Positions 33,276 to 39,713 of a DNA stretch of 39,713 nt are shown piece after piece; positions within the stretch are counted from its first letter, which is position 1; the number at the start of each line of letters is the position of its first letter. The notes beneath the pieces are model-generated. The model worked only from the letters and a program-made list of their open reading frames with translations. It did no database searches and was not told the origin of the DNA. Position numbers and translations under genes: made by a program. This stretch comes from an uncultured Bacilli bacterium (lineage in GTDB: Bacteria; Bacillota_I; Bacilli_A; RFN20; CAG-826): positions 1 to 39,713 of the forward strand of contig CANQQL010000010.1 in NCBI GenBank assembly GCA_947625975.1, in the 5' to 3' direction.

Positions 33276-34862
33276 TTATTTGTTTTTCATTAATTCTTTG
33301 ATGTACTCAGTTTCTTTTATAACATCCAAACGAGGAAATAACGGATCGATTTTATGAACTTTAAGATTGCTTACCTTGCCAAATTCATAAATGTTTTTAT
33401 ATTCCCTTAACTCGTTACTTACTCCGAGTGCATCTAAAGCTTTATCTGCAGCATGAATTAAAACAGGTTTTAACATTATCGAACTTACATATATTACATT
33501 CGCTAAATGGCTCATCACCGAAGCAAGCTCTTTTATTTTTTCTTTATCTTTGGCCAAGGACCAAGGCGCTGTCTCATCAATGTATTTATTTGCTCGTGAC
33601 ACAAGATCCATGACCGCTATAAAAGAATCAGTTATATGAAGATTTTCAAAACCTTCTTCATATTTTGTTATTGTTTCTTTAACTGAGTCTCTTAAAGATT
33701 GATCAAACTCAGTAACGTTACCAACATAGGTAGGTATTACGCCATTGAAATATTTTTCAATCATTGATACAGTACGGCTTAATAAATTCCCATAATCATT
33801 TGCCAAATCCATATTTAAACGCTCCACAAATTGCTCTGGTGAGAACGTTCCATCCTGTCCAAAAATTGTTTCTCTAACGAGGTAATATCGCACAGCGTCA
33901 ACACCATATTTTTCGATTAAAGGATAAGGATTCACAACATTTCCCTTAGACTTTGACATCTTGCCATCTTTCATCATTAAAAGGCCATGTACAAATACTT
34001 TATCCGGAAGTCTTAAATCCAAAGCCATTAATAAAACCGGCCAGTAAATTGTATGAAATCTTGTAATATCATTACCGATAACGTGTACAATTTCTGTGTT
34101 TTCTCCCCAAAATTCTTGGAATTTTTTTACATCATCACTTAAATACCCTAAAGCCGAAATATAGTTTACCAAGGCATCAATCCAGACATAAATTATATGC
34201 TTGGGATTTTCTCTTATAGGAACTCCCCAACTAAAAGAAGTGCGGGAAATACATAAATCTTCAAGTCCGGGTTTAATAAAAGTATTAAGCATTTCATTTT
34301 TACGAGATTCCGGATAAATAAAATCGGGATGTTCTTCATAAAACCTTAATAATCGATCGACATATTTGCTGACTTTAAAGAAATACGCCTCTTCTTCGGC
34401 TTCATGTACTTTTCGACCACAATCGGGGCATATATGTTCTTCTCCGACTTGGGTATCAGTCCAAAACGATTCACAAGGTGTACAATACCAACCTTTATAC
34501 TTACCTAAATAAATATCACCTTGTTCTAACAACCGCGAAAATATCTTTTGCACGACAATTGTATGTCTTTTTTGTGAAGTACGAATAAAATCATCATTAG
34601 TTATTTCTAAAGCTTTCCATAAATTTTGAATGCCTTCAACTATCTCATCGACAAATTCTTGAGGAGTCATGCCTTTTGCATTAGCATTTTTTTCAATTTT
34701 TTCACCATGCTCATCGGCACCTGTTAAAAAATATGTATTATAGCCTCGATATCTTCGATAACGGGCAATAGCATCGCAACATGTTGTACAATAAGCATGT
34801 CCTATATGTAAGTTGGCACTTGGGTAATATATTGGCGTTGTAATATAATAATTTTTTTTCAT
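33276..34862 (-). CDS. metG: Methionyl-tRNA synthetase
   Basis: YPSANLHIGHAY (HIGH), KMSKSKGN (KMSKS), CTPC..CPDC zinc knuckle. Confidence 0.97.
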   Translation of the reverse strand: MKKNYYITTPIYYPSANLHIGHAYCTTCCDAIARYRRYRGYNTYFLTGADEHGEKIEKNANAKGMTPQEFVDEIVEGIQNLWKALEITNDDFIRTSQKRHTIVVQKIFSRLLEQGDIYLGKYKGWYCTPCESFWTDTQVGEEHICPDCGRKVHEAEEEAYFFKVSKYVDRLLRFYEEHPDFIYPESRKNEMLNTFIKPGLEDLCISRTSFSWGVPIRENPKHIIYVWIDALVNYISALGYLSDDVKKFQEFWGENTEIVHVIGNDITRFHTIYWPVLLMALDLRLPDKVFVHGLLMMKDGKMSKSKGNVVNPYPLIEKYGVDAVRYYLVRETIFGQDGTFSPEQFVERLNMDLANDYGNLLSRTVSMIEKYFNGVIPTYVGNVTEFDQSLRDSVKETITKYEEGFENLHITDSFIAVMDLVSRANKYIDETAPWSLAKDKEKIKELASVMSHLANVIYVSSIMLKPVLIHAADKALDALGVSNELREYKNIYEFGKVSNLKVHKIDPLFPRLDVIKETEYIKELMKNK

Positions 34863-34888
34863 AACGAAACCTCCGTTTTGTAAAAATA

Positions 34889-34915
34889 AAACCGTTATCG
34901 CGTTGATAACGGTTT
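34889..34915 (-). terminator. Intrinsic terminator between rpmE and metG
   Basis: AAACCGTTATC-5 nt-GATAACGGTTT perfect 11-bp stem followed on the minus strand by TTATTTTT. Confidence 0.9.
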
Positions 34916-34926
34916 AAGATTGAAAA

Positions 34927-35133
34927 CTATTTTTTAATTCCGTATTTCTTCATGAAACGATCAACGCGACCATCAGTTTGGGTAAAGCGTTGTTTACCAG
35001 TATAAAATGGATGGCAATTTGAGCAAGTATCAACACGAATTTCTTTTAATGTTGAACCTGTTTCAAATGTTGCACCACATGATACACATGTAACTGTGCA
35101 TTTATGGTATTCTGGGTGAATATCTTTTTTCAT
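34927..35133 (-). CDS. rpmE: 50S ribosomal protein L31 (zinc-binding type)
   Basis: [23 protein letters not shown]...[14 protein letters not shown]. Confidence 0.97.
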
Positions 35134-35149
35134 AATAATTCTCCTTCCG

Positions 35150-35176
35150 CCTTAAGCAATTTATGTAAGCTTAAAG
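35150..35176 (-). promoter_or_regulatory. Stem-loop in rpmE 5' leader, candidate r-protein leader
   Basis: Minus strand CTTTAAGC-11 nt-GCTTAAGG (8 bp, one G-U) just upstream of the GAAGGAGA ribosome-binding site. Confidence 0.45.
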
Positions 35177-35191
35177 AAAGTTTGCGATGTA

Positions 35192-35221
35192 AATATACCA
35201 TAATTTATTGATTGTAATCAA
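35192..35221 (-). promoter_or_regulatory. Predicted sigma-A-type promoter of rpmE
   Basis: Minus strand TTGATT-N18-TATATT with TATGG extended -10 context. Confidence 0.55.
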
Positions 35222-35247
35222 TAGTAATTAAAAATTTCTTGTTAATT

Positions 35248-35326
35248 ATTGTTAATCTCAATCGAAAAAGCAACACATGATGAGAAAAGGTGTTGCGATA
35301 TGAATTGTAATGAATAAAATGTTAAA
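35248..35326. repeat. Copy 1 of ~78-nt intergenic repeat with conserved hairpin
   Basis: Aligns along its whole length with 39637-39713; GCAACAC (35270-35276) pairs with GTGTTGC (35290-35296). Confidence 0.85.
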
Positions 35327-35629
35327 ATCAAATAAGGTGTGCATAAGTATTTTACAATTTATTAAAAGCGCTTTCTATAAATGAGAGATTATTTGACAAT
35401 TGATCATATAATCTTTTGTATTCATTCACAAGCAATCAGCAAATTTGAAAATAGTGCTAATTTGATAAGCAAAAAATGCTTTAAAAGTAGTTCTATAATT
35501 TTAATTTTCATAAAATCGCCCAAAAAAATACAATATATTTTTTAAAATTCAAATGTGGTATGCTATTTAATTAAGCAAAAAATTAAAAAATAAATGTGCA
35601 ATTTAAGGCATAAATATTATTTCTTGTGG

Positions 35630-35635
35630 TATAAT
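35630..35635 (+). promoter_or_regulatory. Predicted extended -10 promoter of tldD
   Basis: TGTGGTATAAT followed by GGAGG and ATG at 35659. Confidence 0.55.
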
Positions 35636-35658
35636 GCTATCGATTAGGAGGAAAATTT

Positions 35659-37056
35659 ATGATATCAAAATCACAGGCCATTGAAATTTTAAATGCCGGT
35701 CTTGCCACAGGTGCAGATTTTGTCGAAATTTTCATTGAAGAAAAATACAATAATAATCTTAGTATTGATAATGATAAAATTGAGACCATTTCTTCTGGAA
35801 TAATCTATGGTGCCGGTATCAGACTTTTAAGAGATTTACGTAGTGTCTATGGTTATACCAATGATTTATCTAAGAAAAGTCTATTAACACTAGCTTCAAC
35901 CTTAGCCGCTTCCTTTCAAGGAGAAAGAATCTTAGAAGTCAAAAAATTAACTAAACAAAAAGTCAAAAATGTTCACACAACCTCACGTCATTTAAATGAA
36001 GTTACTAAAGAAGAAAAAATTTCCTTTATTACAAAAATTTCTGACGAAATGAAACAATTTGGAGATAAAATCGTGCGTCGAATTGTTTCTTTTGGTGATA
36101 ATACTCAAAAAATCGTTATCATAAACTCTGATGGCAAGATTTTTGAAGACACTCGCGAACGTGGTCGATTATACATTAGTGCTTTGACGTCTGACAAAAA
36201 TGGTATCGAAAGTAGCGGTGTCGGTCCAGGAGCTTCGAAGGGTTTTGAATATTTTGAAAAAGAAATAGATGCCCTAGCGCTTGCACGCAATGTTTGCGAA
36301 GTGGCGATTAAAAAATTGACTGCCAAAGAATGTCCATCTGGCAAAATGCCTGTTGTTATTGGAAACGGATTTGGTGGAGTTATTTTTCATGAAGCTTGCG
36401 GTCATCCTTTAGAAGCATCTTCTGTTTCAAAGAATTTATCAGTTTTTGCTAATAAATTAGGTCAGCAAATTGCTGCGCCGGTAGTAACCGCTATTGATGA
36501 TGGAACAATTGTTAATGAATGGGGTTCTAATAATATTGATGATGAAGGAAACAAAACTCAAAAAACCACTTTAATAAAAGATGGTATTCTTGTAAATTAC
36601 CTAATCGACAATTTTAATGGACGCCGCATGGGAATGAAGGGTAATGGTGCTTGTCGTAGACAATCATATGCTTTTGAACCAACTTCCCGTATGTCAAACA
36701 CTTATATCGCGGCTGGTAAATCAACCGTAGATGAAATAATTAAAACTGTCAAATTAGGACTATATGCCAAATCTTTAGGTGGTGGTTCGGTTAATCCAAC
36801 AACCGGCGATTTTAACTTTGCAGCCGATGAAGCCTATATGATTCGTAATGGAAAAATTGCCGAAATGGTTAAAGGTGCGACATTAATAGGCAACGGAGCC
36901 GAAGTATTGCTAAATATTGATATGGTTGGAAATGATATTAAACTGGCGCAAGGAATGTGCGGTGCATCTTCAGGAAGCATTCCTGTTGATGTCGGTCAAC
37001 CAACAATTAGAGTATCAGAAATAACTGTCGGAGGACGAGGAGGAGCGTTAAAATGA
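35659..37056 (+). CDS. tldD: Metalloprotease TldD
   Basis: FHEACGHPLEASS (HExxxH) motif and ~465 aa TldD-type architecture. Confidence 0.95.
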   Translation: MISKSQAIEILNAGLATGADFVEIFIEEKYNNNLSIDNDKIETISSGIIYGAGIRLLRDLRSVYGYTNDLSKKSLLTLASTLAASFQGERILEVKKLTKQKVKNVHTTSRHLNEVTKEEKISFITKISDEMKQFGDKIVRRIVSFGDNTQKIVIINSDGKIFEDTRERGRLYISALTSDKNGIESSGVGPGASKGFEYFEKEIDALALARNVCEVAIKKLTAKECPSGKMPVVIGNGFGGVIFHEACGHPLEASSVSKNLSVFANKLGQQIAAPVVTAIDDGTIVNEWGSNNIDDEGNKTQKTTLIKDGILVNYLIDNFNGRRMGMKGNGACRRQSYAFEPTSRMSNTYIAAGKSTVDEIIKTVKLGLYAKSLGGGSVNPTTGDFNFAADEAYMIRNGKIAEMVKGATLIGNGAEVLLNIDMVGNDIKLAQGMCGASSGSIPVDVGQPTIRVSEITVGGRGGALK

Positions 37057-38384
37057 TTAAGCTACAAAAATATTTTGAACTAGCAAAATGTGCCGGCATT
37101 GAGGCACTGGAAATCTATATCGTTCGTAATTATTCTCTGGGATTTTCTCTATTCCATGGAGAAATTGATAGCTACACTACAAATGATAGTATTTCACTCG
37201 GTGCGAGAGGAATTTTTAATGGAAAAATGGGTTATGCCTACTCAGAGAAAATAGATAAAAGCACCCCAGAATTTATTATTAAAAACATTGTAGAAAATGC
37301 TAAAAATATTACCAGCGAAAATAAAGTTTCAATTTTTGAAGGATCAAAAAAATATAAAAAATATAATTGTTATAACAAAGAATTGGATTTAATTCCTGTC
37401 GAAACTAAATTAAATAAACTATATGAATTAGAACGCAAATTAAAAGAATCCGATCCTAGAATTACAGAAATTGGCGGAGTTGGCTATGAAGAGACGCGCG
37501 GAGAAACTATCCTTGCTAACTCGTATGGTTTAAGATTATCAGAAAAATCCAATTACTATGTGTTTTATGCTGAGGCCGTGGCTAAAGATGGCGAAGATAC
37601 AAAAACTGGTTACAAAACTTTCTTAGATTGCGATTTTAATAAATTCGACTTAGATAAGTTTGTTGAAGAAGTAAAAGATAATACCATTAAACAATTAGGA
37701 GGAAAGCCTTGTAAATCAAAAAACTATCGTGCAGTACTTGCTCCTCGTGTTGTTTCTTCTTTACTGAGTGCAATGCTTAATTCCACTATTGCCGAAGAAG
37801 TTCAAAAGCACTCTTCATTATTTGAAGGCAAACTAAATACACAAGTAGTTTCCAAGAAAATAACCATTTCCGAAAAACCTTTGGCGCATAATATCTTTTT
37901 CAAAGGTTTTGATGATGAAGGTGTTGCGACATATAACAAAGATATTATAAAAAATGGCGTATTAAAAACGTTTTTATATAATATAGAGACTGCTCTTAAA
38001 GATGGTGTTCAAACTACTGGCAACGGATATCGTTCCTCTAGTAAATCACCCGTAGAAACAGGCTATAATAATATATTTTTAAAACCCGGAAAATTATCCG
38101 AAGAGAAAATGATAGGAAAAGTAAAAAATGGTATCTATATTGATTCTATAACCGGACTCCACGCCGGTCTTAATTCCCAATCTGGTAATTTTTCTCTTCA
38201 AGCAACAGGCTTTATTATAAAAGACGGAAAAATTTCCGACCCTGTCAATTTAATTACAGTTGCCGGTAACCTTGTAAAAGTTTTTCAAGACGTTACAATG
38301 GTCGCAAATAATATTGAGCTATTAACTAATGCTACTTCTGTTCCTTCTATAGCAATTAAATCTATTATGGTCTCGGGAAACTGA
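37053..38384 (+). CDS. tldE: TldE/PmbA family metalloprotease subunit
   Basis: 443 aa PmbA-like ORF, 4-nt overlap with tldD. Confidence 0.93.
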   Translation: MIKLQKYFELAKCAGIEALEIYIVRNYSLGFSLFHGEIDSYTTNDSISLGARGIFNGKMGYAYSEKIDKSTPEFIIKNIVENAKNITSENKVSIFEGSKKYKKYNCYNKELDLIPVETKLNKLYELERKLKESDPRITEIGGVGYEETRGETILANSYGLRLSEKSNYYVFYAEAVAKDGEDTKTGYKTFLDCDFNKFDLDKFVEEVKDNTIKQLGGKPCKSKNYRAVLAPRVVSSLLSAMLNSTIAEEVQKHSSLFEGKLNTQVVSKKITISEKPLAHNIFFKGFDDEGVATYNKDIIKNGVLKTFLYNIETALKDGVQTTGNGYRSSSKSPVETGYNNIFLKPGKLSEEKMIGKVKNGIYIDSITGLHAGLNSQSGNFSLQATGFIIKDGKISDPVNLITVAGNLVKVFQDVTMVANNIELLTNATSVPSIAIKSIMVSGN

Positions 38385-38466
38385 AGTTTGAATTAAACAA
38401 ATATTATAAAATGATTAATAAATAAGTTTGGCAAAAGAGTATTTTATAGTAAACACATTCATTTAA

Positions 38467-38490
38467 AAAGTGGTCGATTTCGACCACTTT
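38467..38490. terminator. Bidirectional intrinsic terminator downstream of tldE
   Basis: AAAGTGGTCG-ATTT-CGACCACTTT, 10-bp perfect stem with T-rich flank on both strands. Confidence 0.9.
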
Positions 38491-38699
38491 ATTTAATATC
38501 TGGGTTGTAGAAGAACTCCCAAATTCTCAATATTTTCAATGATAAATCACGTTCTGAACCATTTTAATTCGCGCCAATCTTAACTCATTACAAAACTCTC
38601 GACTCTAATGACCTGCATTGATTGATTCGAATTTTATCTACTTTCAAATCGATTCTTAGTTTCGATTGCTCTTTGAGTCGACAAACGTAAGGTATAATA

Positions 38700-39551
38700 T
38701 TACTTTTCGATATAAAGAATCCCAATACATTTTGGGCCACAATGTGAAGAAATAACGCAACCTGCGTATGTTGGTAAAAGATATTTTGGATCTATAAATT
38801 CACTGAGTTTTTTCACAATATACTCACAGTATTCATCAGAGCAAGCGTGTGTAATTGTCACAGTACCTAAATCAACCTTACCTGCCAGATAGGCTTCCTT
38901 AAATTCTGCAATCATAATATCTAAAGCATTTTCAAATCTTCCTCGAGGTGTCTTATGCACATTTAAGACACAATCTTTCATTTTGATAATTGGACAAATT
39001 CTTAAAATTTTCCCAAAGAAATATTTAATTCCCGAACATCTTCCGCCTTTATATAAGTAATCCATAGTTTTAATAGCAAAAGAGCATTGTGTTTTGGGAG
39101 TTATGTCTTTCATTTTTTCCACAATTTCGCTAGCACTTAATCCGGCATTCCTGAATTCAATTAGTTTTAATACTTGAAGTCCAATGGCAGAACTGAGATT
39201 CATTGAATCAATAACAAACACTCGGCCATTAAATTCTTTTGCCACAATTGAAGCAGAAGAATATGTTGATGATAGTTTAGATCCAATTCCCATAAATATT
39301 ATATCAAATCCCAAATCTACAAATTTTTTAAATTCTTCCATAAAAGTTTTTGGAGTTATTGCAGAAGTTTTCGGTAATTCTTTAAATTTTTCTGCCATTT
39401 CAAATAACTGAGATGGAACAATGTCTATAATATCTCGATAAGTATTTCCGCCAATTGTAACATTTAGCGGTAACATTTCAACATCATTTTTAGCTAGTAA
39501 CTCTAATGGTAAATCACAAGTCGAGTCAGTTATTATTTTAACAGGATTCAT
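38700..39551 (-). CDS. DegV family fatty-acid-binding protein
   Basis: KIITDSTCDLPLELL, LPKTSAITP, GRVFVIDSMNLSSAIG, DYLYKGGRCS motifs. Confidence 0.95.
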   Translation of the reverse strand: MNPVKIITDSTCDLPLELLAKNDVEMLPLNVTIGGNTYRDIIDIVPSQLFEMAEKFKELPKTSAITPKTFMEEFKKFVDLGFDIIFMGIGSKLSSTYSSASIVAKEFNGRVFVIDSMNLSSAIGLQVLKLIEFRNAGLSASEIVEKMKDITPKTQCSFAIKTMDYLYKGGRCSGIKYFFGKILRICPIIKMKDCVLNVHKTPRGRFENALDIMIAEFKEAYLAGKVDLGTVTITHACSDEYCEYIVKKLSEFIDPKYLLPTYAGCVISSHCGPKCIGILYIEK

Positions 39552-39583
39552 AAGTAATTCTCCCCCCTTTAGACAGTAAAATA

Positions 39584-39612
39584 ATTATATAGTAACTAAT
39601 CTTTATTGTAAA
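39584..39612 (-). promoter_or_regulatory. Predicted sigma-A-type promoter of degV-like gene
   Basis: Minus strand TTTACA-N17-TATAAT upstream of AGGGGGGAG and ATG. Confidence 0.7.
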
Positions 39613-39636
39613 TAAAAGGGATTGAATGTTCATCAA

Positions 39637-39713
39637 ATTGTTAATCTAAATTGAAAAAGCAACACATGACGAAAAAAGGTGTTGCAATATGAATTGTAAT
39701 AAAAAGTGTTAAA
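39637..39713. repeat. Copy 2 of ~78-nt intergenic repeat, truncated by window end
   Basis: Aligns with 35248-35326 with a handful of substitutions and a 2-nt gap; same GCAACAC/GTGTTGC hairpin. Confidence 0.85.

Follow-up and report, generated by a model that had tools for sequence, protein, structure and literature searches.

The window analysed here is the entire contig C10, 39713 bases, of a draft genome comprising 66 contigs and 1.27 Mb. Toward its right end it carries metG (33276-34862, minus strand), an L31-like gene read by eye from the sequence (start near 35133, minus strand), two TldD/PmbA genes (35659-38384) and degV (38700-39551, minus strand), with Pfam support for metG, for both TldD/PmbA proteins and for DegV. 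Just upstream of the L31-like gene, at 35141-35176 on the minus strand, lies a sub-threshold match to the L31-Firmicutes ribosomal protein leader, scoring 26.5 bits against a gathering score of 33.3. Two copies of a repeat bracket the tldDE-degV genes, and the window sequence and gene calls bear out the initial annotation in placing them in the same orientation, 4.4 kb apart, both intergenic. Pairwise alignment gives 91% identity across 67 nt without gaps, and a search within the genome gives 89% across 79 columns; the E value of the latter, 7.9e-23, puts the similarity beyond chance. The sequences flanking the two copies are unrelated to each other.

Both copies are read on the plus strand. 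Copy 1 (35250-35340) has its outer tip at 35250, with its interior pointing toward higher coordinates, and begins with the terminal inverted repeat TGTTAATCTCAATCGAAAAAGCAACACA (35250-35277), a segment common to the left-type and right-type ends defined below. Its subterminal GTGTTGC (35290-35296) is an inverted copy of GCAACAC at 35270-35276, giving a 7-bp stem with a 13-nt loop. Copy 2 (39639-39713) begins with the terminal inverted repeat TGTTAATCTAAATTGAAAAAGCAACACA (39639-39666), whose 28 bases are the same as those that open the right-type consensus, and repeats the arrangement, with GTGTTGC at 39679-39685 inverted relative to GCAACAC at 39659-39665. The suggestion that this second copy may continue was sound, as it ends only where the contig ends.

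A similarity search of the contigs found 13 clear related ends on 12 contigs of this genome: seven of a left type (two on C10 and one each on C4, C30, C15, C25 and C35) and six of a right type (C32, C63, C2, C52, C37 and C1). In alignments the two types have about 28 bp in common, the terminal inverted repeat itself, and then diverge; relative to the transposase, the repeats of the two types stand in opposite orientation. Eleven of the 13 ends are located at contig ends, and the common 28 bp always faces unique flank, the flank lying outside the repeat. Measured from GTTAAT to the contig end, eight ends run 53, 72, 72, 74, 76, 76, 76 and 76 bases, and three further ends run 305, 315 and 341 bases. 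Such placement of ends at contig breaks is the effect of a multi-copy element on short-read assembly, and the lengths close to 77 are suggestive of a k-mer overlap left by the assembler. Because the ends cluster at contig breaks with lengths near 77, the length of about 78 nt first given for the repeat is mainly an assembly effect, set by where the break falls. It does not hold as a unit: within the genome, copy 1 is closest to a left-end remnant on C4, and the similarity between them extends over 92 nt at 97% identity and stops at 35340. The case illustrates how an apparent unit of this size can arise from draft-assembly breaks inside a multi-copy insertion sequence.

When left-type and right-type contigs were paired by the sequences outside the repeats, three exact pairs emerged, with target duplications of 15, 15 and 16 bp if the first T is assigned to the terminal repeat. 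These are GAATGTTCATCAAAT (15 bp, C10 with C52), AATTTTGTGATATTT (15 bp, C15 with C32) and TTAAAAGCACCTTACG (16 bp, C25 with C1). In a control with about 20,000 random pairs drawn from these loci, comparable matches reached a length of 12 at most, and 11 of the pairs matched over 8 or more. Of the three targets, that of C25/C1 (AAGCACCTTACGGTGCTT) is a hairpin; the other two are not clearly so. In the window, the left copy of the duplication occupies 39624-39638 on the plus strand, immediately before copy 2, and the same 15 bp recur directly outside the right end on C52, a contig that carries mscL adjoining that end. In the congeners G003 and G001, sequence matching C52 adjoins the degV region: the aligned parts are separated by only about 50-60 bp, and the element is absent. 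The C52 pairing, the position of mscL and the uninterrupted congener sites together identify copy 2 as the left end of an element that has inserted between degV and mscL; the element that starts at 39639 and joins C52 is probably a whole copy.

What such an element encodes is indicated by relatives in which its ends extend further. In the relative G134 (L038), a frame reading DSLTQKDVDLIFSHINSTPRKSLGFSTPYAVF... lies directly behind a right-type end; the sole NCBIfam match of its C-terminal 78 aa is the IS30 transposase model NF033563 (E = 3.7e-5), at 23.6 bits, to be read against a cut-off of 80 that applies to the whole protein. At the opposite end, two left-type copies of greater length (L027 and L002) continue for 110-120 bases until they reach a start codon followed by MKHLNQSDRIKS or VKQLNQSEPNK. 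Just about 12 codons of this transposase-like start are available, and in position and kind they are similar to the first codons of intact IS30-like transposases from the same order. Neither among about 190 relatives nor in an exact terminal-repeat scan of the genome contigs did any single contig hold both ends and the whole transposase gene of this very element, and because none spans the element, its interior is pieced together from separate end fragments and related elements. A solved-structure search with a related transposase returned no match. The same genome also encodes a different IS30-like transposase (L065:1219-2430, on C27) and an IS481-like transposase (L017:404-1375, on C35); each gene was considered as the source of the repeat and set aside, the repeat ends not being found as its termini.

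On the sequence evidence, the repeat is very probably the left (5') terminus of a multi-copy insertion sequence of the IS30 family. It is ordinary mobile DNA of a known type. By analogy with established IS30 biology, the transposase would bind the terminal repeats and would join both ends into a circular intermediate, which would be pasted into a new site; the left end would also carry the transposase promoter and leader. Copy 1 would be a decayed left-end fragment from an earlier insertion upstream of tldD, a reading adopted because similarity stops at 35340 and because neither a right end nor a duplication partner for it was found. The metG-tldD interval that contains it (34862-35659) is variable: it measures about 0.8 kb here, with the L31-like gene and the IS remnant, and about 4 and 10 kb in the congeners G002 and G003 (L131 and L132), with several lipoprotein-like genes. 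Deletion of tldDE-degV between the direct repeats, also raised in the initial annotation, is possible in principle, and there is no sign of such a deletion here.

The two copies were first thought to be possibly a structured RNA or a shared regulatory site for the neighbouring genes, a reading to which their intergenic positions and the potential GCAACAC/GTGTTGC stem lend some color. The stem occurs in nearly all left ends, but among 14 distinct sequences no pair had changed on both sides, the folds of the two copies are weak (z = -1.2 and -1.9), and a search of Rfam gave no hit at the repeat. Nor is a regulatory role called for by the location, since the target duplications and the empty site in congeners account for it by insertion, and the sequence itself is explained by IS ends and transposase coding sequence. 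We regard both proposals as extremely improbable, and with that the lead toward a presumed novel RNA or regulatory element is closed; the stem may instead serve transposase binding or a transposase leader. Essentially no credence attaches to a local segmental duplication of non-mobile sequence, the outcome foreseen had just two copies existed. It would suit a pair of copies in one orientation 4.4 kb apart, but it does not explain why 12 contigs carry 13 ends, why eight relatives hold more copies, or why the flanks of the pair are unrelated; the same counts uphold the alternative suggestion of a dispersed DNA element.

It is also very unlikely that the short repeat is a non-autonomous MITE, moved in trans by an IS30-like transposase, with copies of the 35250-35340 kind as whole units. 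A few short left-type copies with no transposase gene do occur in contig interiors (copy 1, L002 and L019), as that reading would have it. A MITE, however, requires two ends, and these copies are left ends only, with no adjoining right-type end found; they stop at differing points, after about 80, 92, 110 and 150 nt, and the longer ones extend into the beginning of the transposase gene, in the manner of truncated IS copies. The earlier suggestion of a MITE-like remnant came near the mark for copy 1, taken as a truncated IS end, and extends no further than that copy. One short copy, a left-end fragment about 80 nt long (L019:1501-1577, on contig C4 of G132), sits between two similar membrane-protein frames and may have split a gene.

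Beyond the genome of the window, related ends occur in eight of 193 relatives, mostly in other families of the order, with right-type ends in distant families reaching up to 97-98% identity; the three congeners had no related ends at the threshold used. This patchy distribution is consistent with horizontal movement. Exact copies of the terminal repeat are also present in genome records that come from samples with a rabbit name (Lapin) and are titled uncultured Bacilli. Viral carriage was considered, and two terminal-repeat patterns had no exact match in viral contigs. On contig C18 of G142 (L021:1-147), a left-end remnant and a right-type end directly adjoin each other in one orientation, the arrangement to be expected had a copy inserted beside the inverted repeat of another. 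E. coli IS30 is known to choose such targets (PMC9333248).

Intact IS30-like elements of 1.56-1.70 kb, with IS30-type transposases, are present elsewhere in the order (L096, L097, L108 and L112). Their inverted repeats are near-perfect, for example TGTTAAGTGACAAGGACGATGCAA and GTTAATTGAAAAACAAAATGCAAC, and the L096 transposase matches IS30 above the curated cut-off, at 82.2 bits. They resemble the window element in the TGTTAA...GCAAC layout of the terminal repeats (looser in L097), in transposase type and in their long common flanks, and differ from it in the middle of the terminal repeats; the C-termini of the order's transposases show about 33-57% identity to that of the window element. The flanking words are 12-16 bp long (AAAGTCGATGTCAA, GTAAAATATGAA, ACGAAAAAATAGGA and CATTGATCAGTTTCCT), and that of L096 reads as a hairpin, the other three not clearly so. 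Because all four elements have such flanks, long duplications look general in the IS30 group of this order.

E. coli IS30 has 26-bp terminal inverted repeats and makes 2-bp target duplications (PMC9333248). The window element is like it in terminal repeat length, here 28 bp, and apparently in transposase family, but differs in duplicating 15-16 bp. There is perhaps an even chance that this order of uncultured Bacilli harbors an IS30 subgroup, as yet unnamed, that steadily makes 14-16 bp duplications and sometimes lands in terminator hairpins; if so, strand joining at the target would be spaced more widely than in classical IS30. The consistent 14-16 bp length of the duplications is in itself a small but useful fact about transposition in these bacteria. 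In the papers searched on the IS30 family we found no more specific account of long duplications than those for IS1630. The original description of that element, by its title, reportedly concerns inverted repeats duplicated as targets. In Mycoplasma fermentans M64, IS1630 has 27-bp inverted repeats and duplications of 16-26 bp in four copies (PMC3317919). The likeness to the window element is one of features: an apparent IS30-type transposase, terminal repeats of about 27 bp and long duplications. The two differ in that duplications here, at 15-16 bp, sit at the bottom of the range given for IS1630 or slightly under it, and in that only one of the three targets here is a clear hairpin.
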